A stretch of DNA of 48,134 nt from a virus. The stretch is taken from positions 1-48,134 of IMG/VR virus record IMGVR_UViG_3300036850_000163; one strand, given 5' to 3'. The position numbers were made by a program, and so were the translations under genes. Positions 128 to 34,351 of the stretch are shown here, piece after piece. The notes under the pieces are model-generated. The model searched no databases, was not told the DNA's origin, and saw only the letters and a list, made by a program, of their open reading frames with translations. The number at the start of each line of letters is the position of its first letter. Position 1 is the stretch's first letter.

Positions 128-204
128 AGTATTAGAAGAAGGTGAGAGAGGGGGAAGGTGTATATGTACCCTTCTCTCTGTGGTACCCCACCTAAACCTG
201 CTAG
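120..204 (+). repeat. 85-bp dispersed repeat, copy A
   Basis: It matches 41003-41087 in the same orientation at 75 of 85 positions, with the first 39 bases identical. Conserved blocks are a purine-rich stretch GAGAGAGGGGGAAGG, then TATATGTACCC, then CCCCACCTAAA. The purine block looks like a ribosome-binding site placed just before ATG at 164, and both copies would encode a similar peptide start (MYPSLCGTPPKPAS here). It lies between the stop of the 47969 gene and the promoter of the collagen-like gene. Confidence 0.85.
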
Positions 205-238
205 CCCACCCCCTCCGCCCCTACCTTGGCCACACCCC

Positions 239-267
239 TTGACCGGGCCCGCTCCAGGTGCTAGCCT
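239..267 (+). promoter_or_regulatory. Sigma70-type promoter of the collagen-like gene
   Basis: TTGACC (239-244), a 17-base spacer and TAGCCT (262-267). Transcription would start near 273, about 30 bases before the GTG at 305. The -10 and spacing match other promoters in this genome, for example 10284-10312. Confidence 0.65.
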
Positions 268-304
268 GGCGAAGCCCCCCGACCCACAACCGAAAGGCAT
301 CACC

Positions 305-11871: not shown

Positions 11872-12062
11872 TGGCCGCCACCTGCCCCGACGGCCTCTAC
11901 CGGGGGTGTGACTTCATGGGCTGCGAGGGGATGCTCCGGATCTGCCCGACCTTCCCGTGCTGCCCGCACCCCGCCCCGACGGCCACGGATTGCCACCAGA
12001 TCGCTCACATGGCCGCCTCCCGCGTCGCGGGGGCTCAGGGGTACCCGGATAGGGGTTCGTGA
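11871..12062 (+). CDS. Cys-rich small protein, 63 aa
   Basis: Coupled to the nuclease stop. Seven or more Cys including GCDFMGCEG and CPTFPCCPH suggest metal binding or disulphides. Unknown function. Its stop lies four bases before the WhiB-like gene start. Confidence 0.65.
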   Translation: MAATCPDGLYRGCDFMGCEGMLRICPTFPCCPHPAPTATDCHQIAHMAASRVAGAQGYPDRGS

Positions 12063-12066
12063 CCCC

Positions 12067-12654
12067 GTGGGCTCCTGGCGGGACCGTGCGGCCTGCAGGG
12101 GGCTCCCAACCGACCCCTGGTTCGATTGCGTCGAGGACCCGGAGACTGGGGAGCGGGAGGTCGACGACGCCGGCCTGGCCCTATGCCGCCGGACCTGTGC
12201 CGTTTGCCCGGTTCGCGTAGAGTGCTTCACGGAGGTCATGGCGGAGGAGGGGAACGCCATCGAGGAGCGCCGGCACGGGGTGTGGGCGGGGACCACCCCC
12301 GAGCAGCGGGCGTCCCTCTACCGCCGGTTTGCGGTGGCTTGTCCCGAGTGCCGGGAGGTCTTCGACCCCGCGGCCTCGATCAACGGCCTGCTCGTGTGCG
12401 AGTGCGGGGAGCAGGTCATGTGGAGTGTGGACGACCGGGGCGATCAGTGGCTCGACCGGCACAGCTCCCTGGCTGCCCGAGTGGGGCGCTGGCTGCAGGA
12501 CTACACAGAACCTGGGGAGCGGGTGCCGTCACCGACCGCCCTGGCGCGCACCTTGGTCGTCCGGAAGGATGACGTGATTCGGGTGTACCGGGCTGCGGTT
12601 CGGGATGGGATGCTGCGGGCGGGTCCGGGGCGGGGCGTCTACTACCGGGTGTAG
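12067..12654 (+). CDS. WhiB-family regulator fused to zinc ribbon and winged helix
   Basis: 195 aa from GTG 12067. Residues 1-80 are a WhiB domain: Cys10, then CAVC-x5-C (Cys44, 47, 53) to hold a [4Fe-4S] cluster, and the GVWAG turn at 71-75. A zinc-ribbon-like segment follows (CPEC at about 92, CECG at about 111). The last 55 residues look like a winged helix (SPTALARTLVVRKDDVIRVYRAAV, then a GRGVYYRV wing). WhiB proteins act with the principal sigma factor in actinobacteria. The start could be elsewhere in the open frame, but this GTG puts Cys10 where it should be. It is the last rightward gene. Confidence 0.85.
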   Translation: MGSWRDRAACRGLPTDPWFDCVEDPETGEREVDDAGLALCRRTCAVCPVRVECFTEVMAEEGNAIEERRHGVWAGTTPEQRASLYRRFAVACPECREVFDPAASINGLLVCECGEQVMWSVDDRGDQWLDRHSSLAARVGRWLQDYTEPGERVPSPTALARTLVVRKDDVIRVYRAAVRDGMLRAGPGRGVYYRV

Positions 12655-20909: not shown

Positions 20910-21539
20910 TCACCAGGCGTCATGAATCTGCGGGTAGGTCTCACCCCGGGAGGCCAGGAGATCGTCCTTCATGCCGCCCAGGAGTTCCTGGAACTTGGCC
21001 TCATGTACCGCGGCCTGGTCCCGGTTGCCGTCGTCGATGTAGGCTCGGGCCAGGGCGCCCTCCAGCAGGATGCCGTGGTACTGCTCCGGGAAGATGGGCT
21101 CACCGGAGGTCAGGTCCGCTGGCCGGGTACGGTACTCAACGTGGAGAGTCGTGGCCGCCGTCGGGTTCGGGTACACCAGGATGCGGTTGGCGCGGATCCG
21201 GTAGTGGGTCGGGTTGCCGGTCTGGGCGGCGGTACCGGGGCCGGAGAAGGCGATCCACATAGCCGCATTCCCGTCGATCGGGAGCAGGGGGTAGTCGTCC
21301 GTCACGTTGTAGATGCCGTCCACGCGCCAGGTGTCGGTGGGCAGGTCCACGCCGGTTGCGGCGGCGGTGACGGAGAGGATCGCACTCTGGTTCTCGGTGA
21401 AGGGCCACCACGGCGACGCGCCGATGACATCATGATACGCGTCGTTCAGGTAGTCGAGCCAAGCGGTGTTGTCGACGACATCCTGGTCCGGATCACGGAA
21501 CCGGGTGCGAAGGCGGCCCTGCATGGCGGAAACGTCCAT
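20910..21539 (-). CDS. Head-tail adaptor (tail tubular protein A-like), 209 aa
   Basis: Starts with helices (MQGRLRTRFRD, WLDYLNDAYHDVIGASPWWPF), then beta-rich THYRIRANRILVYPNP and a C-terminal helical part (GALARAYIDDGNRDQAAVHE). This is the pattern of podovirus gp4/gp11-like adaptors that sit under the portal. It lies directly before the nozzle gene, as in T7-like tails. Confidence 0.78.
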   Translation of the reverse strand: MDVSAMQGRLRTRFRDPDQDVVDNTAWLDYLNDAYHDVIGASPWWPFTENQSAILSVTAAATGVDLPTDTWRVDGIYNVTDDYPLLPIDGNAAMWIAFSGPGTAAQTGNPTHYRIRANRILVYPNPTAATTLHVEYRTRPADLTSGEPIFPEQYHGILLEGALARAYIDDGNRDQAAVHEAKFQELLGGMKDDLLASRGETYPQIHDAW

Positions 21540-23195: not shown

Positions 23196-23644
23196 GGCTT
23201 GCGGCGCCCCGGGACCGTGAACGAGGTCTTGGCGTGGCCCTGCTTGTCGTGGACCAGGCGGTACGTATCGCGGGCCAGGCGCTCGGTGAGTACGTCCCGG
23301 CGGGCGGCGGCTGCCGCCTCCTCCAGGGCGTCGTTGTGGGCGTCGATCTGGTCGATGATGGAGACGGCGCCCGGACGGCCGAGGCGCATACGGGCGAGGT
23401 CGGCAGGGATCTGGCCGGCCTGGCTCGGGTGCCAATGCCCGATGAGCTGCGTGGTCCCGTCCTCGCAGTAGCGGTAGACCTCCAGCCGGCGCATGGTCTT
23501 GCCGGACTTCCGGTGCGTGACGACGCCGATGCTCAGGCCAAGCCTAGGGTCACCGCCCCACGCGATGCCATCGCCGTCGGTGATCTTCTTGGCCAGCTCA
23601 GTGTACTCGGGGGCGTGGACGCCGCCGTCGGGCTTGTACAGCAT
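23192..23644 (-). CDS. Hypothetical virion-region protein, 150 aa
   Basis: MLYKPDGGVHAPEYTELAKK, a beta part (TMRRLEVYRYCEDG) and a helical basic C-terminus (AAAAARRDVLTERLARDTYR). Unknown. Overlaps the nozzle gene by four bases. Confidence 0.68.
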   Translation of the reverse strand: MLYKPDGGVHAPEYTELAKKITDGDGIAWGGDPRLGLSIGVVTHRKSGKTMRRLEVYRYCEDGTTQLIGHWHPSQAGQIPADLARMRLGRPGAVSIIDQIDAHNDALEEAAAAARRDVLTERLARDTYRLVHDKQGHAKTSFTVPGRRKP

Positions 23645-23775
23645 CAGCGCTCCTTGAGGGCCACAACGGGAAGTATGGGGATGGGGGTGGCCAGCTTGGG
23701 ACCATGCAGCGTGAAGTAGATGAACCGGCCTTCACGGTGCCACTCCACGGCCATAGCCAGGGGTTCTGCCGTCAT
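23644..23775 (-). CDS. Hypothetical protein, 43 aa
   Basis: MTAEPLAMAVEWHREGRFIY and a hydrophobic middle. Ends in ALKER with the same 20-base junction as the next gene upstream (GCCCTCAAGGAGCGCTGATG), where the stop, a ribosome-binding AAGGAG and the next ATG are packed together. Unknown function. Confidence 0.62.
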   Translation of the reverse strand: MTAEPLAMAVEWHREGRFIYFTLHGPKLATPIPILPVVALKER

Positions 23776-23906
23776 CAGCGCTCCTTGAGGGCAAGGCGGC
23801 CGGCGTCGAGGGCGCGGCGCAGGCGGCGGGGTAGGTCGCGGGTGCGGTTGCCGGCGGCCTTGTGCGGCTTGCAGAGCCGGCAAGCTCGGTAGCGGCCCGG
23901 GCGCAT
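23775..23906 (-). CDS. Small basic CRLC protein, 43 aa
   Basis: Arg-rich with CRLCKPH; the end ALDAGRLALKER shares its last five codons and junction with the following gene. Possibly zinc-binding. Unknown. Confidence 0.62.
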   Translation of the reverse strand: MRPGRYRACRLCKPHKAAGNRTRDLPRRLRRALDAGRLALKER

Positions 23907-24115
23907 CAGGCGTCGCCCACTCGGCCGGGCTGTCCGTGGCTGGCCAGACGGAACCCGCGCTTCGACTTGCGGCCCTTCCGGGCGATGGGCAGGTTGGGGA
24001 CGTACTGGGTCCTCTTGGTACCGCGGCCGATCGTGGAAATGCGCTGACGGGTGTCGGCCATCTTCCGGCCGAGGGCGTCCGTCTCGGCCTCGGTGCGGTA
24101 CCGCTTGAGCGGCAT
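23906..24115 (-). CDS. Basic protein, 69 aa
   Basis: Rich in Lys/Arg (MPLKRYRTEAETDALGRKMA; ARKGRKSKRGFRLASHG). Coupled by TGATG on both sides. May be virion-associated or nucleic-acid binding; not recognised. Confidence 0.65.
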   Translation of the reverse strand: MPLKRYRTEAETDALGRKMADTRQRISTIGRGTKRTQYVPNLPIARKGRKSKRGFRLASHGQPGRVGDA

Positions 24116-24627
24116 CAGGCGCCCCAGACCGCGCCACGGAGGAACAGGTTGTTGAGGAGGGCCCGGCGCCTCTCCTCCTCGGCGGCCCAGGTGGCGGGGT
24201 TGGAGTCCGCGTCCCGGGGGGCCTGCATCATGTTGCGGGAGATGGCGTCGGTGATGCCCTGCCGCATCCAGGTGAGGGGGCGACCGCCGGGGAGGGCGGC
24301 TGGCGCACCGTGGGCCAGGGCGGTGAGAGCCGGCCGGCGTCCGTCCGCCGAGACCGGGGTGATGGTCTCTCCCCGCGGGGCCCACCGGTCACCGGATTCG
24401 GGGACTGGGGTCGGCTCCCAGCCGGTCGGGACACGGCGGGTCAGCGGGGCCGGCGCGCCGGGGACGGGCACCGGTAGGTTTCGGGCCCGGGCCGGGGTCG
24501 GAATGGGGCGCGGAGTTGCGGGGGCGGGGGTCGGGCGGACGGCCCGGCGGCGGACGCTCTTGTCGGGACGGACGGCCCGGCGGCGGGTGGAGGCTGCGGG
24601 CTGCGGGGCGCGGGTCTTCATGGGCAT
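24115..24627 (-). CDS. Basic, Pro-rich protein with RRAVRP repeats, 170 aa
   Basis: N-terminus carries RRRAVRP twice (about residues 15-32), a motif also in the N-terminus of the 459-aa virion protein, then a Pro/Ala linker and a helical C-terminus (WAAEEERRRALLNNLFLRG). A leaderless promoter places transcription start at ATG 24627; a second in-frame ATG follows two codons later. Proposed virion-associated protein by the shared motif. Confidence 0.65.
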   Translation of the reverse strand: MPMKTRAPQPAASTRRRAVRPDKSVRRRAVRPTPAPATPRPIPTPARARNLPVPVPGAPAPLTRRVPTGWEPTPVPESGDRWAPRGETITPVSADGRRPALTALAHGAPAALPGGRPLTWMRQGITDAISRNMMQAPRDADSNPATWAAEEERRRALLNNLFLRGAVWGA

Positions 24628-24640
24628 GAGTCAGGCTACC
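24625..24640 (-). promoter_or_regulatory. Leaderless promoter GGTAGCCT-GACTC-ATG
   Basis: TAGCCT (plus 24633-24638) five bases before ATG 24627. It sits right after the last tRNA gene and restarts mRNA synthesis below the tRNA array. Confidence 0.7.
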
Positions 24641-24645
24641 ACGGC

Positions 24646-24727
24646 GGCAGGACAGGGAGTCGAACCCTGAGGCCCCGGGGGGCCGACGCGGTAGCAACGC
24701 GCTCCGATACCGTTACGGCACCCTGCC
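24646..24727 (-). tRNA. tRNA-Ser(GCU)
   Basis: Acceptor GGCAGGG/TCCTGCC, T-arm CAGGG-TTCGACT-CCCTG, anticodon loop TTGCTAC (U33 present), long variable arm, G discriminator. CCA not encoded. Last gene of the array. Confidence 0.87.
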
Positions 24728-24731
24728 AAGA

Positions 24732-24817
24732 GGCGGGACTGGGATTCGAACCCAGGGGGCTGCGACACCCTTCCGTTTTCGGGACGGACGCCTTAAACCG
24801 GACTCGGCCACCCCGCC
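24732..24817 (-). tRNA. tRNA-Ser(CGA)
   Basis: Acceptor GGCGGGG/TCCCGCC, T-arm CTGGG-TTCGAAT-CCCAG, anticodon arm TCCGT-CCCGAAA-ACGGA, long variable arm. Position 33 is C instead of U. Confidence 0.85.
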
Positions 24818-24819
24818 GT

Positions 24820-24891
24820 CCGCGCCCGAGGGATCGAACCCCGGCACCCCGCGTATCAGGCGGGCGCTCTTACCTACTGAGCTAGGCGCGG
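24820..24891 (-). tRNA. tRNA-Ile(GAU)
   Basis: Acceptor CCGCGCC/GGCGCGG, T-arm with TTCGATC loop, anticodon arm CCCGC-CTGATAC-GCGGG. Canonical, U33 present. Confidence 0.88.
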
Positions 24892-24894
24892 TCC

Positions 24895-24933
24895 GTACGA
24901 TGACCTTCACCTCGGGGGTGAGGTTCATCGTAC
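24895..24933 (-). other. Long hairpin inside the tRNA array
   Basis: A 17-base stem (two mismatches) with a five-base loop starts and ends with GTACGATGA / TCATCGTAC. It fills most of the 47-base gap between tRNA-Thr and tRNA-Ile. Could be a processing signal or a partial terminator; it is not followed by a T run. Confidence 0.6.
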
Positions 24934-24938
24934 TCAGA

Positions 24939-25005
24939 GCCTCACCGAAGAGTCGAACTCCGCCCGCCGGCCGTACGAAGGGCGGCTGATCCCGGATCGT
25001 GAGGC
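24939..25005 (-). tRNA. tRNA-Thr(CGU), minimal D-arm
   Basis: Perfect acceptor GCCTCAC/GTGAGGC and a good T-arm (CGGAG-TTCGACT-CTTCG). Anticodon arm CGCCC-TTCGTAC-GGCCG has one C-C mismatch; anticodon CGU, U33 present. The D-arm is cut to a 3-4 bp stem with a tiny loop (GATCCGGGATC). Functionality uncertain, but it is the only readable Thr tRNA. Confidence 0.55.
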
Positions 25006-25010
25006 GTGGT

Positions 25011-25080
25011 ACGCGGCCGAGGGGTCGAACCCCGGTTCCCTGGGTGTAGGCCAGGTGCCTTGCCATTAGACGAGCCGCGT
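25011..25080 (-). tRNA. tRNA-Val(UAC), C33
   Basis: Acceptor ACGCGGC/GCCGCGT, T-loop TTCGACC, anticodon arm CCTGG-CCTACAC-CCAGG with five perfect pairs, so the register is fixed and position 33 is C. Confidence 0.85.
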
Positions 25081-25085
25081 GTAGT

Positions 25086-25155
25086 GGAGCCCGAGGGAGT
25101 CGAACCCTCATCGGCTGCTTGCAGGGCAGCGGTCCTCCCATTGAACGAGGGCCCC
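25086..25155 (-). tRNA. tRNA-Ala(UGC), C33
   Basis: Acceptor GGGGCCC/GGGCTCC contains G3-U70, the main alanine identity pair, with A73. Anticodon arm GCTGC-CCTGCAA-GCAGC is perfectly paired; position 33 is C. Confidence 0.88.
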
Positions 25156-25158
25156 TGG

Positions 25159-25231
25159 GGCGAACGCTGGGGGTCAAACCCAGTCTAGCAGGGCCACGAC
25201 CTGCTGTGCGCGTCGGTACACTACGAACGCC
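25159..25231 (-). tRNA. tRNA-His(GUG), mismatched acceptor, C33
   Basis: Has the extra G-1 opposite C73 typical of bacterial tRNA-His. The acceptor GCGTTCG/CGTTCGC has two U-U mismatches in the middle. Anticodon arm CCTGC... reads GCAGG-TCGTGGC-CCTGC, anticodon GUG with C33. T-loop TTTGACC. Confidence 0.68.
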
Positions 25232-25233
25232 GT

Positions 25234-25305
25234 CCCGCGCCGAGGATTCGAACCCCGACCGCCTGGTTAAGAGCCAGGTACGCTATGCCGTTACGCCAGC
25301 GCGGG
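25234..25305 (-). tRNA. tRNA-Lys(CUU)
   Basis: Acceptor CCCGCGC/GCGCGGG, TTCGAAT loop, anticodon arm CCTGG-CTCTTAA-CCAGG. Canonical with U33. Confidence 0.88.
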
Positions 25306-25309
25306 TGGA

Positions 25310-25376
25310 CGTGGGGCCGGGAGTCGAACCCGGCGGAGCCGCTTTGCAGGCGGCCGGTCGCACCGGCTTCCCCACG
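25310..25376 (-). tRNA. tRNA-Cys(GCA)
   Basis: Acceptor CGTGGGG/CCCCACG, T-arm CCGGG-TTCGACT-CCCGG, anticodon arm GCCGC-CTGCAAA-GCGGC. Short D-arm (CCGG-TGCGA-CCGG) and position 8 is A. Confidence 0.82.
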
Positions 25377-25381
25377 TTGGT

Positions 25382-25451
25382 CGGGCGAGGAGGAGTCGAA
25401 CCTCCGTTTCACGGTTCCAGGCCGCGATGTCTACCGTTGACCTACCGCCCG
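25382..25451 (-). tRNA. tRNA-Pro(UGG), C33
   Basis: Acceptor CGGGCGG/TCGCCCG, T-arm GGAGG-TTCGACT-CCTCC, anticodon arm CGCGG-CCTGGAA-CCGTG. Position 33 is C. Confidence 0.85.
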
Positions 25452-25455
25452 TAGT

Positions 25456-25526
25456 ACCCCCTGCACGAATCGGACGCGCATCTCCGGGTTCGTAGCCCGG
25501 TGCCTTCTCCATTGGACCAAGGGGGC
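25456..25526 (-). tRNA. tRNA-Arg(ACG)
   Basis: Acceptor GCCCCCT/AGGGGGT, anticodon arm CCGGG-CTACGAA-CCCGG with U33; A34 would be edited to inosine. T-loop is TCCGATT instead of TTCGANN. Confidence 0.83.
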
Positions 25527-25531
25527 GTGGT

Positions 25532-25607
25532 GCCGGCTCGTGGAATCGGACCACGGGTGCCGCAGCGGCTGCTTTACAGGCAGCGTCCCCGCCATGGGGT
25601 AGCCGGC
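25532..25607 (-). tRNA. tRNA-Tyr(GUA)
   Basis: Acceptor GCCGGCT/AGCCGGC, T-loop TCCGATT, anticodon arm GCTGC-CTGTAAA-GCAGC, variable region about 12 bases, short D-loop. Confidence 0.85.
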
Positions 25608-25612
25608 TTGGT

Positions 25613-25685
25613 ACTCCCCCTCGGATTCGAACCGAGACTGTCACGGGTCTGAGCCGTGTCCCTCTGCCAGTTGGGGTACGGGAGC
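25613..25685 (-). tRNA. tRNA-Leu(CAG) with short variable arm
   Basis: Acceptor GCTCCCG/GGGGAGT (6 of 7 pairs), U8-A9, D-arm with CCC/GGG stem, anticodon arm CACGG-CTCAGAC-CCGTG, TTCGAAT loop, A73 and an apparent encoded CCA. The variable region is only five bases, whereas bacterial tRNA-Leu normally has a long arm. Confidence 0.7.
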
Positions 25686-25765
25686 GTGCAACTCGGGGGC
25701 CGGAGTTGCACCGGCCAAGCGGGGGTCGGGTGCACCCGTTGCCCGCGCCGCCACTGTTCCCGCGC
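25686..25765 (-). other. Structured tRNA-sized segment, possible decayed tRNA
   Basis: 80 bases between tRNA-Arg(CCU) and tRNA-Leu. It contains nested hairpins: GTGCAACTC...GAGTTGCAC, and CGGG-TGCA-CCCG inside GCGGG/CCCGC. A T-arm-like GCCGG-TGCAACT-CCGGC is visible but no consistent cloverleaf or anticodon. Confidence 0.4.
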
Positions 25766-25831
25766 GCCCCCGGGAGGAGTCGGACCTCCGGTGGCCGGCT
25801 TAGGGGGCCGGCGCCCGCCACGGGCGGGGGC
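25766..25831 (-). tRNA. tRNA-Arg(CCU), C33, minimal D-arm
   Basis: Perfect acceptor GCCCCCG/CGGGGGC, T-arm GGAGG-TCCGACT-CCTCC, anticodon arm CCGGC-CCCCTAA-GCCGG with C33. D-arm is CCCG-TGG-CGGG, a three-base loop. 66 nt in total. Confidence 0.66.
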
Positions 25832-25841
25832 TTAGGTTGGT

Positions 25842-25908
25842 GGCGGATCTCGGTACTGCCCCGAGCCGTCCAGGGTTATGGGCCCCGGCGCTGCCTTGCA
25901 GATCCGCT
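25842..25908 (-). tRNA. tRNA-Met(CAU), initiator-like, C33
   Basis: Anticodon stem has GGG/CCC pairs next to loop CCCATAA, the initiator hallmark, and the first acceptor pair is unpaired (A1, C72). T-arm stem CTCGG/CCGAG is intact but its loop is GGCAGTA, not TTCGANN. Short D-arm. Initiator versus elongator cannot be settled by eye. Confidence 0.6.
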
Positions 25909-25912
25909 TCGC

Positions 25913-25983
25913 TGCCGGACCAGGGATCGGACCTGGGATCCTCCGCTTAACAGGCGGACGCTTTGCCACTCAGCTACCCGGCA
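25913..25983 (-). tRNA. tRNA-Asn(GUU)
   Basis: Acceptor TGCCGGG/TCCGGCA, T-arm CCAGG-TCCGATC-CCTGG, anticodon arm TCCGC-CTGTTAA-GCGGA. U33 present. Confidence 0.88.
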
Positions 25984-25988
25984 TTGGT

Positions 25989-26060
25989 TCAGGAGGCAGG
26001 ACTCGGACCCGCTACCTCGTGGTTCAGAGCCACGCGTGCAGCCAGTTACACCTCTCCTGA
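25989..26060 (-). tRNA. tRNA-Gln(CUG)
   Basis: Acceptor TCAGGAG/CTCCTGA, T-loop TCCGAGT, anticodon arm CGTGG-CTCTGAA-CCACG. U33 present. Confidence 0.88.
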
Positions 26061-26062
26061 GC

Positions 26063-26133
26063 GGCTGTACGGGGGGACGATCCCCGGCTTCCGCCTTGAC
26101 AGGGCGGCGTGCACACCGGCACACTACACAGCC
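26063..26133 (-). tRNA. tRNA-Asp(GUC)
   Basis: Acceptor GGCTGTG/TACAGCC, T-stem CGGGG/CCCCG with loop ATCGTCC, anticodon arm CCGCC-CTGTCAA-GGCGG. U33 present. Confidence 0.84.
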
Positions 26134-26138
26134 ATGGA

Positions 26139-26209
26139 GCGAGTGCCCGGATTCGAACCGAGACCTAGAGCTTGGAGGGCTCATATGCTGCCGTTGACAC
26201 TACACTCGC
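26139..26209 (-). tRNA. tRNA-Gly(UCC), C33
   Basis: Acceptor GCGAGTG/CACTCGC, TTCGAAT loop, anticodon loop CCTCCAA on a GAGC/GCTC stem with one extra mismatch. Position 33 is C. Confidence 0.82.
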
Positions 26210-26211
26210 GT

Positions 26212-26281
26212 GACCCGCCGGGGGTTCGAACCCCGGTTGCCAGGTTGAGGGCCTGGCGTCCTACCGCTAGACGAGCGGGTC
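26212..26281 (-). tRNA. tRNA-Glu(CUC), C33
   Basis: Acceptor GACCCGC/GCGGGTC, T-arm CGGGG-TTCGAAC-CCCCG, anticodon arm CCAGG-CCCTCAA-CCTGG. Position 33 is C. Confidence 0.86.
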
Positions 26282-26282
26282 T

Positions 26283-26353
26283 TGAGGGCCTGCGGGCCGG
26301 CTCATCGCCGCCCTCCACCCCGGGCCATGGGCCCCGGGAGCTGCCCTCGGCGC
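26283..26353 (-). other. tRNA-like remnant with CAU loop
   Basis: A tRNA-sized gap with GAGGGC/GCCCTC ends and a central CCGGG-GCCCATGG-CCCGG hairpin resembling the tRNA-Met(CAU) anticodon arm, but no acceptable T-arm. Possibly a decayed duplicate of tRNA-Met. Confidence 0.35.
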
Positions 26354-26424
26354 CCGTCTCCCAGGAGTCGAACCTGGCCTTCCCGGGCTTCAACCGGGCG
26401 CCCCCCCACGGGTGCAAGAGACGG
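26354..26424 (-). tRNA. tRNA-Phe(GAA)
   Basis: Acceptor CCGTCTC/GAGACGG, T-arm CCAGG-TTCGACT-CCTGG, anticodon arm CCCGG-TTGAAGC-CCGGG. U33 present. Confidence 0.87.
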
Positions 26425-26500
26425 AGGACCGGGACCGGGGCTGCACCGTCGAGCACGGTGGCCCCGGCCCCGCAACCAGCAACGTACCTGGTTGCTTCGC
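26425..26500 (-). other. Structured tRNA-sized segment
   Basis: 76 bases with two strong hairpins: GCAACCAG/CTGGTTGC, and CACCG-TCGAGCA-CGGTG extended by CCGGGGC/GCCCCGG. The second has a seven-base loop like an anticodon arm, but no acceptor and T-arm combination could be built. Confidence 0.4.
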
Positions 26501-26567
26501 ACACCCCCGAGGAGTCGGACCCCGCTGAACCGGGTTGGAGCCGGTCCTGCTCCCAGAGCAGAGGTGT
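26501..26567 (-). tRNA. tRNA-Trp(CCA)
   Basis: Acceptor ACACCTC/GGGGTGT, T-loop TCCGACT, anticodon arm ACCGG-CTCCAAC-CCGGT. U33 present. 67 nt with a short D-arm. Confidence 0.82.
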
Positions 26568-26636
26568 AAGTACGGGGCGGCGTCCCACCGCCCCGGGCCC
26601 GTACCGCCGGGCTAGCGTTCGTACCGAGGGACTTAC
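26568..26636 (-). other. tRNA-like element, first in the array (possible Thr GGU)
   Basis: Six acceptor-type pairs (GTAAGT/ACTTAC, two bases shared with tRNA-Trp), a GCCCG/CGGGC arm with the shortened loop GCGGTA, and an 8-bp arm with loop TGGGACG in place of a T-arm. It lies just after the promoter start point. It may be a strongly altered tRNA-Thr or a structured leader. Confidence 0.35.
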
Positions 26637-26646
26637 CAGGACTCCT

Positions 26647-26675
26647 ATGCTACCACGCCCCCAGACCAATGTCAA
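26647..26675 (-). promoter_or_regulatory. tRNA-array promoter TTGACA-N17-TAGCAT
   Basis: Minus strand: TTGACA (plus 26670-26675), 17 bases, TAGCAT (plus 26647-26652). Start predicted near 26640, just before the first tRNA-like element. The same hexamers and spacing occur at 45657-45685. Confidence 0.8.
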
Positions 26676-26709
26676 GAGCCCCGGGGAGGAGGCGGCCCCG
26701 GGGCTCTTG
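26673..26709 (-). terminator. Strong hairpin before the tRNA promoter
   Basis: A perfect 14-bp stem CAAGAGCCCCGGGG / CCCCGGGGCTCTTG with a nine-base loop. It lies 40 bases after the stop of the 43-aa gene at 26749 and overlaps the -35 box of the tRNA promoter. No T run follows, so termination may be partial. It separates capsid mRNA from the tRNA transcript. Confidence 0.7.
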
Positions 26710-26748
26710 GTGTCTCAGCCCCGATCCCCGGGGCCAGGGGGTGTCGGG

Positions 26749-26880
26749 TTACTTCTTCTTGGCGGTGAAGGCGCGGGAGTGCCGGCGCCCGCCAAGGCTC
26801 ATATTGTCCTTCGGGGCGACGGCCTTGGGGGCTGACGTCTTCTTGCCAGCAGGGGCGGCCTTGCCGTAGCGGGCTGGCAT
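26749..26880 (-). CDS. Small basic protein, 43 aa (MPARYGKAAP paralog 1)
   Basis: Starts MPARYGKAAPAGKKTSAPK, nearly the same as the next gene upstream, and ends RRHSRAFTAKKK. Strongly basic and disordered-looking. Placed right after the major capsid gene, so a capsid-cementing, DNA-binding or internal peptide role is possible. Confidence 0.7.
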   Translation of the reverse strand: MPARYGKAAPAGKKTSAPKAVAPKDNMSLGGRRHSRAFTAKKK

Positions 26881-27026
26881 CAGTGCTTCCTCTTCCGGTC
26901 GTAGTCGGTCATGATCTTGTGGAGGGGGTGGCCCTTCGGGTAGCGGGGGGCCGCAGCCTTGACACCGGTCTTAGGAGCCGCGGTCCGCTTACCCGAGGGG
27001 GCAGCCTTACCGTAGCGAGCCGGCAT
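26880..27026 (-). CDS. Small basic protein, 48 aa (MPARYGKAAP paralog 2)
   Basis: MPARYGKAAPSGKRTAAPK start shared with the neighbour; the C-terminal half differs (YPKGHPLHKIMTDYDRKRKH). Its TGA overlaps the neighbour's ATG. A local duplication followed by divergence of the tails. Confidence 0.7.
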   Translation of the reverse strand: MPARYGKAAPSGKRTAAPKTGVKAAAPRYPKGHPLHKIMTDYDRKRKH

Positions 27027-27031
27027 CAGGA

Positions 27032-28294
27032 TCAGAAGGTCGGCTCGGCGAGGGTGACGACGGTGTGGGCGTTCCTGGTCACGGCCTCCAGGTTGAGGTA
27101 GGCCTTGTACCGGGCGTTGATGGCGTCCTGGGTCTGGCTCTTGAAGAAGACCTCGCCGTCGTCATCGTCCCACTGGAAGTCGAGGCCGACGAACAGCTCG
27201 ATCTCGCTCATCTTGAGGGCGAAGACGAGGTTGGAGGGACAGTACCGGTCCACGACCAGGCTTCCCCGGGCGACGTTCAGGCCGCGCCATCCGCTCGTCA
27301 GGGTCATCTCCCGGCCCTCGTAGCGCTTCTGCGTCTGGAGCAGGGAGGCCAGCTTGCGGCGCTGGGCCTGCTCGGTCACGTACAGCTCGGGCGAGTCGCC
27401 GTTGCCCTCGACCTCGACCAGCTCGACGGCCTCGTCCAGGATGGACTCGGAGATGGCCGTGGTGGCGGATCCCAGGGTCAGGGCGTTCCAGACGGCGTTG
27501 GTGGAGGCGGTGATGCCAGCGTAGTTCGCCGTGCCGATGAGGAAGCGCAGACCGTTGGTCTCGACGTTCAGGTTGGAGTCGGACACGGTCTGGCCGTTGC
27601 CGCTGGCGCCGGTGGCGGAGGTGGCGCGGACTGCCATGTCACCGGTCGTGATGCCGGCCGCGGCCGTCTCGTTCATGGTGACGGTGCGGGCCGCGACCTG
27701 GATCGAAGCGACGCTGTAGACGCCGGTGCGGAAGACACCGTCGGCCGGGTTGACGAAGCCGATCTGCATGTTGACGTGGAAGTGGCGGATGATGGAGGCG
27801 GGCTCGTTGGCGAAGGTGAAGACGGCGCCGGCACCGGGGTCGGCGGAGAGGGTGCCGATGACGCCGGACTGCAGGGTGCCGTTGACCGTGAGGCGCTGGC
27901 CGAAGGCCTGGCGCGCGGCGTCCAACTTCATGTCCTTCTCGGCGCCCTTGACCTCGGCCTCGACGGCGCGGATGAAGGCGCCCTCGTCGTTGCGGGTCAG
28001 GTGCTTGGCCGGACCGGACACCTGAATGGTGTGGTACATGAACTCCAGGTCGTCCACGGCGCGCAGGTAGCGCTGGCGGTCGGCGACGGGGAGGGTACCC
28101 AGCTCGGCCCGGTTACCGGTGGCGTTCGACCGACCGGAGTGGACCGACCAGACGGCCTGGAGACCGACGATGTCCTCGGTGTTGCGAGCGACCTCGGCCC
28201 AGATGACGTTGCTGTTGTTGATCCCGTTCTTGAGGCCGACCGAGTAGTCGTCCTTCATGACGGTGTTGCCGTAATTGGCTACACTAGCCGGCAT
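27032..28294 (-). CDS. Major capsid protein, 420 aa
   Basis: Located after the scaffold gene and of HK97-fold size. N-terminal MPASVANYGNTVMKDDYSVG, a domain with GPAKHLTRNDEGAFIRAVEA, a beta insertion (VYSVASIQVAARTVTMNET) and a C-terminal part with LVVDRYCPSNLVFALKMSEI, the receptor-like layout of podovirus/P22-type capsid proteins. ATG follows an AGGAG site and an upstream TAGCTT -10 (28345-28350). Confidence 0.85.
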   Translation of the reverse strand: MPASVANYGNTVMKDDYSVGLKNGINNSNVIWAEVARNTEDIVGLQAVWSVHSGRSNATGNRAELGTLPVADRQRYLRAVDDLEFMYHTIQVSGPAKHLTRNDEGAFIRAVEAEVKGAEKDMKLDAARQAFGQRLTVNGTLQSGVIGTLSADPGAGAVFTFANEPASIIRHFHVNMQIGFVNPADGVFRTGVYSVASIQVAARTVTMNETAAAGITTGDMAVRATSATGASGNGQTVSDSNLNVETNGLRFLIGTANYAGITASTNAVWNALTLGSATTAISESILDEAVELVEVEGNGDSPELYVTEQAQRRKLASLLQTQKRYEGREMTLTSGWRGLNVARGSLVVDRYCPSNLVFALKMSEIELFVGLDFQWDDDDGEVFFKSQTQDAINARYKAYLNLEAVTRNAHTVVTLAEPTF

Positions 28295-29691: not shown

Positions 29692-29884
29692 GGTGGGTCC
29701 TCCTTGTGCGGGGTGGCTGGAAGTGGTAGAGGTAGGCGGCTAGGACGGCGGCGGTCGCGAGGCGGTGCCGGCGGGCGAGGGCGGTGGCATAGGGGCCGTG
29801 GACGTGCGTGGCGTTCCAGACGACCGCGGCGGCCGGGAGCAGGGACCACACGGTGTCACGCGCCCTGACGGTAGGCCTGGTCAT
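29681..29884 (-). CDS. Small membrane-type protein, 67 aa
   Basis: Overlaps the portal stop by 29 bases and the scaffold start by 11. Contains LLPAAAVVWNATHVHGPYAT, ARRHRLATAAVLAAYLYHF and a basic end. I recall similar short actinophage proteins (ATxxARRHxxxTAAVLA), function unknown. Confidence 0.62.
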   Translation of the reverse strand: MTRPTVRARDTVWSLLPAAAVVWNATHVHGPYATALARRHRLATAAVLAAYLYHFQPPRTRRTHHGT

Positions 29885-31946
29885 CGGGCTCGATCCCCGG
29901 GACCTGGCCGGCCCCCTGGAGGGCGCCGGGCGGGGAGATGGTGAGAGCGCTCGGCGCGCCGCCCGAGGCGACGGCCAGGGCGTCGGGCGGTAGGCCGGTG
30001 GTCGGGTCGATGTAGGCCGGGCCCTGGCCGCCGGGCATGTTCTCGGGCGCCTCCTCGCCGCCGCCGCCGCCGGGGCCGGGGATCATGCCGCCCGCGACGC
30101 CGCCAGGCAGGCCACCCATGGTCTGGTACTGGAGCCAGGCGTAGTGCTCCAGGACGTGCTGGGCCATGCGGGCCTTGGCCTCATCATCCCACAGCTCGTA
30201 CTCGGGCGTCTTGCGGTACCGGTTGTGGGAGCCCTGGATGTGGACGGCGTGGGTGTGCCAGTCCTCGGCCGGGACGGTCTCGCCGAACATCATCCGCTCG
30301 TTCTCGCGGTCGGCCTGGCGGATGTCGAGGTCGAATTCCTCCTGCAGGAACCCGATGCCGGGCATCTCCAGCATGCGAATGAAGGCGGCGGGGTCCTTGA
30401 GGATCTGGCGGTCCCACAGATCGAGGGCGAGCTGAGCCCGGGCCGACTTCGACTTCGGCATCATGGACTCGGCGGAGACGTGGACGTCGAGCTGGGCGGG
30501 GAGGTCGGAGGCGTTGAAGCGGTGGACGTCAAGCTTGCCGGTCTCGGACCAGGCGCGGATGAGTCGCTCCTCGGTCCAGAACTGGCGGATCAGCATGAGC
30601 ACCTGGAACCCGAGCCGCTCGACGGACTCGGCCATCTCCTTGGCCGAGATGGCAAGCTTGGACTCGTCAGCCTCCTGGAGGGCGAGGATGGCGGCGGCCG
30701 GGGCGCCGGCCGGGGCCCGGCCCTGCGAGACCTCGGCCTGCCCGGCCCGGTCCCCCATCTCCGCGTCGGCCCGGGCCATCGCCAGTTCGAAGGCCTCCAT
30801 CCAGTTGGACGGCGTGGCGAGCCAACGGGGCTCGGGGCCGGTCGGGTTGTAGTCGATGACCTCGACGCGCGAAGTCAAGCGGTTGGCGTCGATCTGCCCG
30901 CGGGCGGCGGCCATCTTGGGGACCAGGGTGCGGCGGATGGTGGCCTCGCGCGACCGGGCGTCGTTGTAGTCCTTCTGCATGTCACGGAGGTCGCCCAGCC
31001 ACGTCCGGCCCTCGGCGAACCCGACGCCGGGGAGGAGGGAGAAGGGGATGAAGGGGAGCTGGCCGTGCTCGTAGGGGAAGGGCATGGGCCCCTCGAGAAT
31101 GGTGCCGCCGGCCCAGGTGAGGACGAGGCCCTCGGGGCGGGCGCGGCCGCCGGGCTTGATCCAGAGCTGGTGGACGCCGATGCGCTCGACCTTGCGGTGC
31201 TGGTTCTGGGCGGTGGCGTCCGGTACGTTCCCGGCCATGAGGGAGGCGACGTCCTCGGCCAGGTCGCGGACCCGGGCCCCGCCGGCCTCGACGTCCGTGA
31301 TCCCGTACTGCTCATAGATGGCCTCGCGGGTCATGTTGCAGGAGCGAACGCACCAGCGCACCTCGTCCCAGGCCTTGGCGTTCGGGTCGACCTTGACCTC
31401 GATGCCGGGGACGACGATGGCGGCGATCTCGCCCTGCTTCACCGTGCCCTGCTCATCCTCGCCGGCCTCGGACCCGGCCTCCGGGTCCCAATAAATGTGG
31501 AGGAAGGACCAGCCCAGGGGCATGACCCAGAAGTAGAGGCGGGGGAGGAGCGCGCCCCAGTGCAGGCGGTTCATCTCGTGCTGGAGGGCCCGGGTGCCGA
31601 CCTTGGCCGCCGAGATGTCGTCGTCCTCGTTCGTGACGGGCCGGCACTCGGGGATGGGGGCCGACTTGGTGAGGCGGGAGATGGTGCGCTCGACCAGGGC
31701 ACCCATCTTGTTGATCTTGATGCGGACGGGCGCGTTCGGGTCGCCCTTGCGCGGGGCGGCGGCCGGGAGGAGGGTGCGCTTGACCGCGTCGTAGGACACC
31801 CACTGCTGGCCAAGCATGAAGGCCAGGTTGAGGTAGCACTCGCGCTCGACCAAGCCGTGGGCCTCGTCCAGGCGCTTGTTGGCCCAGGCGAGCAGCTCCT
31901 TGCGGTCGGTCGGGACGCGGGGGTTGAAGGCGCCGGTCTCAGGCAT
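29856..31946 (-). CDS. Portal protein, 696 aa
   Basis: Size and sequence fit P22/podovirus portals: RIKINKMGALVERTISRLTK (portal core start), SFLHIYWDPEAG, VPGIEVKVDPNAKAWDEVRW, then a long helical C-terminus. ATG 31946 overlaps the previous stop (TGATG); a GTG one codon earlier is possible. Twelve copies form the DNA gate to which terminase docks. Ends in a Gly/Pro-rich tail. Confidence 0.88.
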   Translation of the reverse strand: MPETGAFNPRVPTDRKELLAWANKRLDEAHGLVERECYLNLAFMLGQQWVSYDAVKRTLLPAAAPRKGDPNAPVRIKINKMGALVERTISRLTKSAPIPECRPVTNEDDDISAAKVGTRALQHEMNRLHWGALLPRLYFWVMPLGWSFLHIYWDPEAGSEAGEDEQGTVKQGEIAAIVVPGIEVKVDPNAKAWDEVRWCVRSCNMTREAIYEQYGITDVEAGGARVRDLAEDVASLMAGNVPDATAQNQHRKVERIGVHQLWIKPGGRARPEGLVLTWAGGTILEGPMPFPYEHGQLPFIPFSLLPGVGFAEGRTWLGDLRDMQKDYNDARSREATIRRTLVPKMAAARGQIDANRLTSRVEVIDYNPTGPEPRWLATPSNWMEAFELAMARADAEMGDRAGQAEVSQGRAPAGAPAAAILALQEADESKLAISAKEMAESVERLGFQVLMLIRQFWTEERLIRAWSETGKLDVHRFNASDLPAQLDVHVSAESMMPKSKSARAQLALDLWDRQILKDPAAFIRMLEMPGIGFLQEEFDLDIRQADRENERMMFGETVPAEDWHTHAVHIQGSHNRYRKTPEYELWDDEAKARMAQHVLEHYAWLQYQTMGGLPGGVAGGMIPGPGGGGGEEAPENMPGGQGPAYIDPTTGLPPDALAVASGGAPSALTISPPGALQGAGQVPGIEPDDQAYRQGA

Positions 31947-32230
31947 CACTCAGCCTCATCGGGGTCGTGGTAGTACAGGCCGCTGTCGTCCCACACCGCG
32001 TTCGGGGGGACGAGGGGCTGGACCGGGGCCGCGTCTGCCTGCCACCAGGACTCGGCGGCGGGGGCCTCCTTGCGGGCCAGGAGGGAGAGGAGGTGGTCGA
32101 CGCGGATGGCCTCGGCGGCCAGGGCGGCCTCCAGGCGGCGGCGCTCCCCGCGCATGGCGAGCAGGGGCCCGAAGGCCGCGCCGGCCGCGGCCAGGGCGCC
32201 GGCAAGGGCGGGAACGAGGACGTCAAGCAC
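31946..32230 (-). CDS. N-anchored protein, 94 aa
   Basis: Hydrophobic N-terminus (VLVPALAGALAAAGAAFGPL), a charged helix (RGERRRLEAALAAEAIRVDH) and an acidic tail (DDSGLYYHDPDEAE). GTG start. Between a zinc protein and the portal gene; function unknown. Confidence 0.65.
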   Translation of the reverse strand: MLDVLVPALAGALAAAGAAFGPLLAMRGERRRLEAALAAEAIRVDHLLSLLARKEAPAAESWWQADAAPVQPLVPPNAVWDDSGLYYHDPDEAE

Positions 32231-32467: not shown

Positions 32468-32801
32468 GCGGACGCCGTTTCCGGCACGTGTGCGTCCCCT
32501 CCTCGTGGCGCTTGATCCAATTACAGTTGGCGCAAAGGGGCTGGAAACGATGCGGTTCCCGGCACACCAGATTGTAGAAGGTGACGCCCCGCTCGTTCTG
32601 CTGGTGGCCGTCCCCGTTGATATGATCCACCTGGATGGCGCGAGGATCGGAAAATCCACAACGCCGGCATACGCGACCGATCACGTCGAGCGCCCGCTCG
32701 CGAGCGGCAGCGTGCTGAATCTGCTTGGTGTCGGCATAGCAGTCTAGGCAGGTCGACCCGCCGGTACGGCGGGGAGCCCCGAAGCATTTTGTACAGGTCA
32801 T
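32463..32801 (-). CDS. HNH endonuclease, 112 aa
   Basis: Four Cys in CTKCFG / CLDC at the start, then CRRCGFSDPRAIQVDHINGD and LCANCNWIKRH, a zinc-finger HNH with the catalytic His in VDHINGD. ATG overlaps the terL stop (ATGA). HNH proteins next to terminase often help cut DNA during packaging, but a free-standing homing nuclease is equally possible. Confidence 0.85.
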   Translation of the reverse strand: MTCTKCFGAPRRTGGSTCLDCYADTKQIQHAAARERALDVIGRVCRRCGFSDPRAIQVDHINGDGHQQNERGVTFYNLVCREPHRFQPLCANCNWIKRHEEGTHTCRKRRPR

Positions 32802-34351
32802 ATCCACTCCGGATCCCAGGCCTTGTGCCCTGAGCCGGTGAGGCGCTCCCGGTCCCGGGCTCGCATGGCGGCGAACGAGCGGTCCTTGAGATGGAAGTAG
32901 TCGGACAGCGGGGTGTCGGACCGCGGGGCCAGGCGGAGTTCGTCGGACATGGCGAAGGCGTAGCACAGCGCGTCCCCGCGGTCGAGGGTGAACCCGCGGT
33001 CGCGGCGGCGGAGTTCCTCCTTCGTCTCGACCCGGATGTCCCCATTCGCGGTGATGGTGTACTTCAGCTTGGTCGTCTGTTCCCGCAGCTTCGGGTCGTG
33101 GACGCGGATGGCGATGGCGCCGTTCTCGAACCGGCGGCGGAGGTTCCACCAGGCCTGGGAGCGCCAGTTCTGGAACTTGGTCTGGACGGCCAGGGCGCCC
33201 CGGAAGGGGACGAGCTGGATCACGCGCTCGGGGAAGGCCTTCATGCCGGCGGCCACGGCGGCCTCGGCGTAGCCGATGGCGCCGGCCCCCACGCCGTCGG
33301 CGTCGTAGACGACGAAGTCGGGGGCGTACTTGAGGATCGCCTCGGTGACGGGGCCCTGGAAGAAGGAGTCCGGGCGCATGGCGGGGAAGGGCAGGAGGGC
33401 GGTGACCATGTTCCCGTCGCGGACGGCGATCGTGTTCTCGTTGGAGCCGTACGGGGCCAGGTCGATGCCGAGCTGGCGGGTGCCGGGGGTGCCCTCCGCC
33501 TGCACGGCCTGGTCGTACCAGGGCTCGGCGATGAGGTTGTCGTCGGTGAGGTCCCAGAACTCGGCCTCGATCTTCGTGGTCCAGTCGTAGGTGCCGGGGC
33601 CCATGCCGGCGGCCTTCAGCTCGTCCAGGTACTCGGGGGTGAGGAGGTAGGCGCCGGCCGGGGCCTCCTCGCCGGTGAAGTTCGGCGTCTCCCAGGCCGG
33701 GATCTTGATGACGGTGGTGTGGCCGGCGCGGCACTGGTCGGCGGCCCAGGTGTCGCCGGACGTCGGGTTGAAGATGAGGAGCTGCCGCGCGTCGCCGGTG
33801 GCGAGCGAGGACACGAGGCCGCGGGTCGTCTCTTCAGGCAGGGCGGTGGCCTCGTCCCCGACGACCAGGATGTGGGCGCCGTGGACCCCCTGGAGCGACT
33901 CTGCCATGCTCGGGCTCTGGCCCAGGATCCAGTGGTCCGGGCCGTCGTCGAGGCGCAGTGTCTGGCCCACGCCCATTCGCCCGGGGAGGGCGATGCCGCG
34001 TTCCTGGAGCTGGACGTACGCGAGGCGGATCTCGCCCCACAGGACGTCGCGCAGGTGCTCAAACTTGGAGGCCAAGGTGATGACCTTGGCCCCGCCACAC
34101 GGGCCCGCACAGCGCCGGCAGGGGGTGCCGGGCATGTAGGCGTCGTAGAAGGCGAGGGCGATACGGGCCGCGAGCCACGTCTTGCCGCTGGCCGTGCAGG
34201 AGGGAACGGCGACCCGGGCCCGGAAGTGGGAGCTGGCGAGGGCGATGTCGCGCTGGATGCTCCAGAGTCCGCCGCACGCCGCCTCCACCCACAAACCAAG
34301 GTCGGCTTGCCCGGCGAGACGAAGGCGGGCGCGGGCATCGGTGGTCTGCAT
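32798..34351 (-). CDS. terL: Terminase large subunit, 517 aa
   Basis: ATPase domain: Walker A PSCTASGKT (50-58), Walker B ILVVGDEAT (161-169) and coupling motif IFNPTSGD (193-200). Nuclease domain: GIDLA with Asp297, VVYDADGVG near 348-356, and RGDALCYAF near the end. Packages DNA through the portal. Unusual is a CRRCAGPCGG segment (78-87) inside the ATPase domain that could be a zinc knuckle. No obvious small subunit lies beside it. Confidence 0.92.
   Translation of the reverse strand: MQTTDARARLRLAGQADLGLWVEAACGGLWSIQRDIALASSHFRARVAVPSCTASGKTWLAARIALAFYDAYMPGTPCRRCAGPCGGAKVITLASKFEHLRDVLWGEIRLAYVQLQERGIALPGRMGVGQTLRLDDGPDHWILGQSPSMAESLQGVHGAHILVVGDEATALPEETTRGLVSSLATGDARQLLIFNPTSGDTWAADQCRAGHTTVIKIPAWETPNFTGEEAPAGAYLLTPEYLDELKAAGMGPGTYDWTTKIEAEFWDLTDDNLIAEPWYDQAVQAEGTPGTRQLGIDLAPYGSNENTIAVRDGNMVTALLPFPAMRPDSFFQGPVTEAILKYAPDFVVYDADGVGAGAIGYAEAAVAAGMKAFPERVIQLVPFRGALAVQTKFQNWRSQAWWNLRRRFENGAIAIRVHDPKLREQTTKLKYTITANGDIRVETKEELRRRDRGFTLDRGDALCYAFAMSDELRLAPRSDTPLSDYFHLKDRSFAAMRARDRERLTGSGHKAWDPEWI

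Follow-up and report, generated by a model that had tools for sequence, protein, structure and literature searches.

The window analysed here, i.e. the whole stretch of 48,134 nucleotides, is the complete circular genome of a phage, as indicated by the 127-bp direct repeat at the ends of the record (48,007 bases are unique), which confirms the 48-kb size first attributed to this phage. The host group is probably the actinobacteria. Between the capsid and tail genes, on the structural-gene strand, lies an array of 22 tRNA genes, all on the minus strand (Table 1), which spans positions 24643-26567 (and not 24646-26636, as first annotated) and occupies about 2 kb, i.e. about 4% of the genome length. 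The spacers are 0-80 nt long, many of them of just 0-3 nt, and the stems are intact.

Table 1. Position, particulars and means of detection of the tRNA genes and neighbouring features
Feature	Position	Strand	Particulars	Detected by
tRNA-Trp(CCA)	26499..26567	-	U33	ARAGORN, custom model
tRNA-Phe(GAA)	26352..26424	-	U33	ARAGORN, custom model
tRNA-Glu(CUC)	26210..26281	-	C33, loop ccctcaa	ARAGORN, Rfam, custom model
tRNA-Gly(UCC)	26135..26209	-	C33, loop cctccaa	ARAGORN, Rfam, custom model
tRNA-Asp(GUC)	26061..26133	-	U33	ARAGORN, Rfam, custom model
tRNA-Gln(CUG)	25985..26060	-	U33	ARAGORN, Rfam, custom model
tRNA-Asn(GUU)	25911..25983	-	U33	ARAGORN, Rfam, custom model
tRNA-Met(CAU), probable	25838..25908	-	C33, encoded ACCA	Custom model, cloverleaf scan; not ARAGORN/Rfam
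tRNA-Arg(CCU)	25766..25831	-	C33, perfect cloverleaf fold	Custom model, relaxed ARAGORN
tRNA-Leu(CAG)	25609..25685	-	U33, short variable arm	ARAGORN, Rfam, custom model
tRNA-Tyr(GUA)	25528..25607	-	U33	ARAGORN, custom model
tRNA-Arg(ACG)	25454..25526	-	U33	ARAGORN, Rfam, custom model
tRNA-Pro(UGG)	25378..25451	-	C33, loop cctggaa	ARAGORN, Rfam, custom model
tRNA-Cys(GCA)	25306..25376	-	U33	ARAGORN, custom model
tRNA-Lys(CUU)	25232..25305	-	U33	ARAGORN, Rfam, custom model
tRNA-His(GUG)	25156..25231	-	C33, loop tcgtggc	ARAGORN, custom model
tRNA-Ala(UGC)	25084..25155	-	G3.U70, C33, loop cctgcaa	ARAGORN, Rfam, custom model
tRNA-Val(UAC)	25007..25080	-	C33, loop cctacac	ARAGORN, Rfam, custom model
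tRNA-Thr(CGU)	24939..25005	-	U33, shortened D arm	Custom model, cloverleaf scan, relaxed ARAGORN
tRNA-Ile(GAU)	24818..24891	-	U33	ARAGORN, Rfam, custom model
tRNA-Ser(CGA)	24730..24817	-	C33, loop cccgaaa	ARAGORN, Rfam, custom model
tRNA-Ser(GCU)	24643..24727	-	U33	ARAGORN, Rfam, custom model
Predicted sigma70-type promoter	26647..26675	-	TTGACA - 17 nt - TAGCAT, TG before -10	Consensus match
GC-rich hairpin	26672..26710	-	14-bp stem, overlaps promoter -35	Fold energy
Major capsid protein gene	27032..28294	-	Upstream of array	phrog_14242, E 6e-47
Small basic proline-rich ORF	24115..24627	-	Starts 16 nt past last tRNA	ORF

Using a combination of methods (ARAGORN, covariance models, cloverleaf scan and minimum-energy folding), we confirmed the tRNA set listed by the first-pass annotation, the call for Met being the weak one. 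ARAGORN at default settings identified 19 tRNAs at 24643-26567 (-), zero elsewhere in the 48,134 bases and zero in 300 dinucleotide shuffles of the array, and its relaxed mode added tRNA-Thr and tRNA-Arg(CCU). The Rfam tRNA model passed 14 array tRNAs at its gathering score, and it did not match Thr, Met and Arg(CCU) even at E <= 5. An independent custom covariance model, for which we used 28 tRNAs from other viral arrays and zero window sequences, matched all 22 genes (E = 1e-6 for Thr, 2e-6 for Arg(CCU) and 0.004, precisely 0.0036, for Met); when run on the whole genome it found 21 of them, Met being lost to the default filters, and any other hit had an E value no better than 0.8. The cloverleaf scan paired 16 of the 17 positions in both Thr and Met (the latter taken as 25842-25908), and 17/17 in Arg(CCU), scores that were equalled by 0/300, 0/300 and 0-1/300 shuffles, respectively. 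The minimum-energy fold of Arg(CCU) is the cloverleaf; those of Thr and Met do not form it. tRNA-Thr has the acceptor pairs G1-C72 and C2-G71, and tRNA-Met is initiator-like, with an A1.C72 mismatch and G29-G31 paired with C39-C41. In the Glu-Phe and Phe-Trp gaps, neither the cloverleaf scan nor the custom model revealed a further tRNA. Altogether, 18 amino acids are firmly represented, the Thr call is good and the Met call, the weakest (E = 0.004), is probable; with these two, all 20 amino acids are represented. The identity elements that had been pointed out in the sequence are all present, namely G3.U70 in tRNA-Ala, G-1 (position 25231) and C73 in tRNA-His, which also has two U.U mismatches in its acceptor stem, and long variable arms in both Ser tRNAs; such an arm, which would be expected in a bacterial tRNA-Leu, is missing from the tRNA-Leu of the array.

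The predicted promoter of the array matches the consensus at 10 of 12 positions, and it is the sole such site in 23400-27200, where 0.1 is expected from shuffles. The region of the neighbouring hairpin (26660-26740) folds with an energy of -48.2 kcal/mol (z -2.66), and this hairpin, located 3' of the capsid-gene operon, is probably a terminator. On the other side of the array, the small ORF has no Pfam or PHROG match.

According to the definition of Morgado and Vicente (2019, PMC6409571), a viral tRNA gene cluster has 15 or more tRNA genes at a density of 2 per kb or higher. The present array, with 19 (ARAGORN) or 22 (custom model) genes and 11.4 tRNAs per kb, falls within this definition, and it further resembles these clusters in that no integrase was recognised here, as in most of the published carriers. 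It differs from them by the 48-kb size of the genome, its density and the representation of nearly all amino acids by a single tRNA, the published carriers having genomes of 72-617 kb with 2-10 tRNAs per kb, and all 20 isotypes occurring in 8 of the 228 clusters surveyed (PMC6409571). A similar clustering of tRNAs for 19-20 amino acids on actinobacterial mobile elements is known from Mycobacterium, where tRNA array units occur in phages, prophages, plasmids and chromosomes (PMC5966550, PMC12803027), and one Mycobacterium-phage array (L138; 78 kb, 23 tRNAs, 20 amino acids) has 18 of our 22 anticodons. The Mycobacterium-type carriers are larger, and their arrays often include other RNAs or a gene for an HNH endonuclease (a frequent but not strictly defining feature), whereas neither an HNH endonuclease gene nor a GOLLD-like RNA was found inside our array, where the Rfam gathering-score matches are tRNAs only. 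Phages do usually carry a partial set, as first stated, and complete sets have precedents (PMC6409571, PMC5966550, L138).

The C1 mycobacteriophages also have many tRNAs with changed anticodon loops and no tie to codon demand, and van den Berg (2023, PMC10264068) proposed that these changes block tRNA nucleases. In that study, known VapC sites and host tRNAs served as the reference for the changes, whereas here it is the U33-to-C33 change that recurs; furthermore, tRNA-Ser(CGA), which C1 mycobacteriophages avoid, is present here (PMC10264068). Other phage tRNAs have been shown to evade tRNA-targeting defences (PMC11555353). Five arrays of uncultivated viruses (L091, L101, L324, L325 and L302) cover 18-19 amino acids with mostly the same anticodons as ours, in about 2 kb except for L302 (6 kb), and L302, L324 and L325 are similarly C33-rich. 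Their contigs are mostly of 28-106 kb, L091 being a fragment of 9.8 kb, and those checked have no end repeats, unlike our genome; likewise, when other mid-size complete phages with full sets were looked for, the comparison contigs of 28-78 kb had no end repeats and may therefore be incomplete.

Position 33 of tRNAs is almost always a U, and a C33 should make decoding somewhat less efficient. In our array, C33 occurs in 7 of the 19 ARAGORN tRNAs (9/22 of the full array), as compared to 35/896 across a viral sample (p 5e-6), 1/126 (about 1%) for viral loci that have 1-5 tRNAs, 71/932 (about 8%) for those that have at least 15, and 0/68 in the scattered chromosomal tRNAs of seven MAGs (from other phyla), all these viral and MAG rates being biased, even after seed removal, by the seeding of the samples with C33 patterns. 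The tRNA arrays within such bacterial genomes do carry C33. Two origins of C33 were rejected: the duplication of one tRNA, as the similarity among the C33 tRNAs does not exceed that among the others (0.56 vs 0.57), and, for the bacteria tested, a normal host trait, given the 0/68. A pure GC drift is weakened, not rejected: some C33-rich arrays have a GC content of 54-57% (L282 and L302) or lack C55 (L324), but C33 correlates with GC, and with C55, across 50 arrays (rho 0.5). In large viral arrays the U-to-C changes at position 33 outnumber those at position 55 (71 vs 21, p 5e-8). The same C33 loops recur in unrelated arrays, and those of Ala, Val and Glu are identical in L138, which is close to Mycobacterium phage Cosmo. 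We found no paper in open full text dealing with U33/C33, or position 33, in phage-encoded tRNAs. The C33 pattern fits a resistance to anticodon-loop nucleases, but U55 is also often C here and C33 tracks GC, such that a relaxed drift keeps some weight.

Why phages carry tRNAs is a question decades old. The replacement of host tRNAs, as suggested by the first-pass annotation, is plausible, because the array has a single tRNA for each amino acid, a promoter of its own and unusual loops at the anticodon. Since no tRNA-destroying gene or tRNA-specific nuclease was recognised among the phage ORFs scanned, the host would be the most likely source of any attack on tRNAs. We propose, with about even confidence for and against, that the array is functional, separately promoted and near-minimal, and that it counters host tRNA cleavage, partly via its C33 loops. 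Accepting this proposal, the phage lineage would have gained the array between its capsid and tail genes; host tRNA-cleaving defences would deplete the tRNA pool during infection; the array tRNAs, if transcribed, charged and used by ribosomes, would replenish the pool, and phage translation would continue alongside the surviving host tRNAs; and the altered loops (C33 in 7-9 tRNAs) may turn some array tRNAs into poor substrates of anticodon-loop nucleases. More tentatively, and with more doubt than belief, C33 could be an adaptive signature of mobile tRNA arrays in general, where the loss of the U-turn uridine would hide tRNAs from nucleases reading U33/N34, C33 arrays being then a shared counter-defence, of which ours would be a compressed form with a single tRNA for each amino acid in 48 kb.

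It is rather unlikely, though deserving some weight, that the array is relaxed and partly decaying, i.e. that it was acquired once, that its tertiary contacts and U33 have drifted to C under the high GC, and that few of its tRNAs matter now. Such a drift would account for the changes at positions 8 (altered in 3/19 tRNAs), 33 and 55 (U to C in 5/19), the weak folds of Thr, Met and His, and the way C33 tracks GC, and 22 independent needs are indeed hard to imagine; yet nearly every acceptor and T stem has kept its pairing, 19/19 tRNAs show no change at positions 53 and 61, the promoter is intact, 2 kb out of 48 kb are retained with hardly any spacer, and the moderate-GC and C55-free arrays mentioned above are C33-rich all the same.

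The proposed countering of host cleavage has to be confronted with what the array can read. In the four-codon boxes, its anticodons have U34 or C34 (Ala UGC, Val UAC, Gly UCC, Pro UGG, Leu CAG, Thr CGU and Ser CGA), whereas the commonest phage codons end with C (GCC 74%, GUC 64%, GGC 62%, ACC 66%, UCC 47% and CUC 50%). With standard wobble the array covers 36 of the 61 codons and 58% of the phage codons, and with U34 superwobble 44/61 and 85%, the favoured Ala, Val and Gly codons being readable only via superwobble. As no array tRNA reads ACC, UCC and CUC (the commonest codons for Thr, Ser and Leu) or CGG, the host tRNAs Thr-GGU, Ser-GGA, Leu-GAG and Arg-CCG must survive, and the array cannot be a full replacement of host tRNAs, which excludes that strong form of the initial suggestion. 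For the same reason, it is improbable that the phage itself destroys the tRNAs of its host, or stops host translation, and uses the array for late structural-gene translation: the array does adjoin the capsid gene on the structural-gene strand, but with such incomplete codon reading a wholesale loss would halt the phage too, and the ORFs scanned offer no recognised nuclease.

These data support the conclusion that the array follows isotypes, not phage codon demand, such that codon tuning does not fit, as argued from the outset. That the tRNAs supplement codons used more by the phage than by its host is thus still more improbable: C34 in Lys, Gln and Glu suits AAG, CAG and GAG, the codons that dominate, and every two-codon C/U box has G34, but the preferred codons listed above are unread or read through superwobble only, and selective tuning does not predict a tRNA for nearly every amino acid. 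A 48-kb genome that devotes 4% of its length to a set of roughly one tRNA for each amino acid, and whose anticodons ignore its own codon preferences, is a clearer case against codon tuning than the large phages with at least 30 tRNAs.

Searches with the capsid and terminase identified about 20 relatives (45-56% identity, including 43-49-kb contigs), all of which lack an array even when searched with the covariance model tuned to viral arrays; two overlapping records among them hold 1-2 single tRNAs. A portal query found zero relatives, and a terminase search of GTDB contigs for host genomes found zero matches. The joining of a foreign tRNA array into the phage contig during assembly, which the relatives and the failure to find a second record of this genome might evoke, is most improbable in view of the single circular contig, the gene order of relatives on both flanks, the GC content of the array (68% vs 70% for the genome) and the promoter fitted to the junction. 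Plasmids have no nucleotide match to the array, and its DNA similarity to phages is limited to single-tRNA matches, the best being Leu (84%, Streptomyces phage Wofford). The nearest relatives in culture carry 0-4 tRNAs, and the 43-kb Streptomyces phage Rowa carries 7.

All 22 minus-strand tRNA genes of the array called by the first-pass annotation were matched, with the filters off, by a covariance model trained on 28 tRNAs taken from other viral arrays, the window sequence being excluded. In addition, ARAGORN detected 19 tRNAs, all on the minus strand (24643-26567), none in the rest of the window and none in 300 shuffles, and 14 Rfam tRNA matches were accepted. Proof separate from ARAGORN was needed for Thr, Arg-CCU and Met. 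Thr (E 1e-6) and Arg-CCU (E 2e-6) were upheld by both the covariance model and a cloverleaf search compared with shuffles; Met, the weakest, was supported by the cloverleaf search and by the model with the filters off (E 0.004), but not with the filters on. Accordingly, the whole-genome run of the model recovered 21 of the 22 tRNAs, Met being dropped by the filters, and beyond the array tRNAs it found nothing better than E 0.8. As read from the sequence, the Met tRNA has a CAU anticodon, an A1.C72 mismatch, three anticodon-stem G-C pairs and an encoded ACCA, all of them known features of initiator tRNAs. The spacers are short (0-3 nt for 16 of the 21), and the 3' CCA is encoded in 9/22 genes.

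Several details of the array are worth recording. The tRNA-Leu(CAG) is devoid of the long variable arm that Leu tRNAs have in bacteria, and the DNA sequences it matches best are Leu tRNAs of phages. The Phe-Trp spacer is filled by two strong inverted repeats (GCAACCAG...CTGGTTGC and a long GC-rich hairpin), which are perhaps processing or attenuation signals. The Glu-Phe spacer harbors a hairpin with a CAU loop resembling a degenerate Met anticodon arm, where neither the cloverleaf scan nor the covariance model found a tRNA.

Positions of the features of the window
Feature	Position	Strand	Basis
Terminase	32798-34351	-	gene prediction + family search
Portal	29856-31949	-	gene prediction + family search
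Capsid	27032-28294	-	gene prediction + family search
Tail or head protein	20910-21539	-	gene prediction + family search
WhiB-like gene	11908-12654		
sigma70-type promoter	26675-26647		
Phe-Trp spacer	26425-26498	-	
Glu-Phe spacer	26282-26351	-	
tRNA-Leu(CAG)	25609-25685	-	
Two small ORFs	26749-27026	-	
Collagen-like protein	158-1045	+	

A sigma70-type promoter (10/12 consensus match, 17-nt spacer, upstream TG) precedes tRNA-Trp by about 80 nt; it is the sole such site in the region (0.1 expected), and is overlapped by a strong hairpin following the capsid operon. From this promoter and this hairpin, the array looks like a separate transcription unit.

A survey has already described viral tRNA clusters, eight of them with all 20 isotypes, in genomes of 72-617 kb, with 2-10 tRNAs per kb (PMC6409571); within this kind, the array of the window is extreme in both genome size and density. 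Similarly, arrays for 19-20 amino acids occur in mycobacterial phages and plasmids, where an anti-defence role was suggested (PMC5966550, PMC12803027); resistance was also proposed for mycobacteriophage tRNAs (PMC10264068), and Cas13a cleaves uridine-rich anticodons (PMC11042736). The array also shows a pattern of C at position 33 (C33), no description of which was found in the open literature searched.

The first-pass annotation had proposed the replacement of host tRNAs, and not codon tuning. The array reads 36/61 codons (58% of phage codons) with standard wobble, or 44/61 (85%) with U34 four-fold reading, leaving the common codons ACC, UCC, CUC and CGG without a reader. This incomplete coverage speaks against codon compensation, in line with a tRNA choice that does not follow phage codon use, and also against a self-sufficient replacement set. 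Because 16-19 of the 22 anticodons are common to the array and to five compact viral arrays (L101, L138, L324, L325 and L091), a standard minimal tRNA set may recur among unrelated phages.

U33, which makes the U-turn of the anticodon loop, is nearly invariant in tRNAs. In the window, C33 occurs in Glu, Gly, Pro, His, Ala, Val and Ser-CGA (7/19), and in 9/22 once Thr, Arg-CCU and Met are added (the last two carry it). The Ala, Val and Glu loops are the same in L138, a Mycobacterium-phage array 98-99% identical to phages Azrael100 and Cosmo. In samples that were all drawn from pattern seeds, C33 was found in 35/896 viral tRNAs (seed loop taken out), in 58/529 of a second sample (Gly-C33 seed), and, by tRNAs per locus, in 1/126 (1-5), 18/357 (6-14) and 71/932 (15 or more). 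The Val-C33 pattern led to Planctomycetota and Acidobacteriota contigs that turned out to be tRNA arrays, the further tRNAs of which have C33 in 97/563 cases. In seven genomes of this kind, the tRNAs scattered over the chromosome had none (0/68, in a sample of best-scoring matches, which favors U33); in one genome, Val-UAC and Gly-UCC have U33 in their chromosomal copies and C33 in their array copies. Metagenome-assembled contigs of these two phyla (L214-L248, e.g., L220 with 43 tRNAs in 8 kb, L231 and L234) carry large arrays of conserved order in which C33 is frequent, alongside chromosomal tRNAs with the normal U33; one genome has scattered tRNAs on the very contig that bears the array.

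Drift under weaker constraint is a live rival explanation of C33, since U55 is changed to C in 5/19 window tRNAs, and across 50 arrays C33 is correlated both with GC (rho 0.52) and with C55 (rho 0.51). The following lines of evidence argue against pure drift. First, large viral arrays change more at position 33 than at 55 (71 vs 21; p 5e-8). Second, the viral arrays L282 and L302 are C33-rich despite a GC content of 54-57%. Third, positions 53 and 61 are unaltered in the window tRNAs. C33 occupies more than half of the tRNAs in both L302 (18/29, on an 84.6-kb contig) and L282 (10/18).

A 127-bp direct repeat at both ends of the 48,134-base window shows it to be a complete, circularised viral genome with 48,007 unique bases (69.6% GC). 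The structural and terminase genes share one arm; the plus strand encodes a DUF3987 helicase, DNA polymerase A, a dNMP kinase, an amidase and a PD-(D/E)XK nuclease, assigned likewise by gene prediction and family searches. The WhiB-like gene and the occurrence of terminase and capsid relatives in Microbacterium, Arthrobacter, Streptomyces and Cellulosimicrobium phages suggest an actinobacterial host; related records are filed under Podoviridae. Relatives with 45-56% terminase identity share the gene order around the capsid and tail genes but have no array. The array was either gained in this lineage or lost from many others. Among the known arrays sampled, its tRNAs have no close counterpart (best identities 65-80%). 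Between the capsid gene and the array, two small neighboring ORFs, of 43 and 48 aa, share the N-terminal sequence MPARYGKAAP and are apparently tandem copies. Finally, one predicted protein has collagen-like repeats and a C-terminus weakly resembling an LPXTG anchor.
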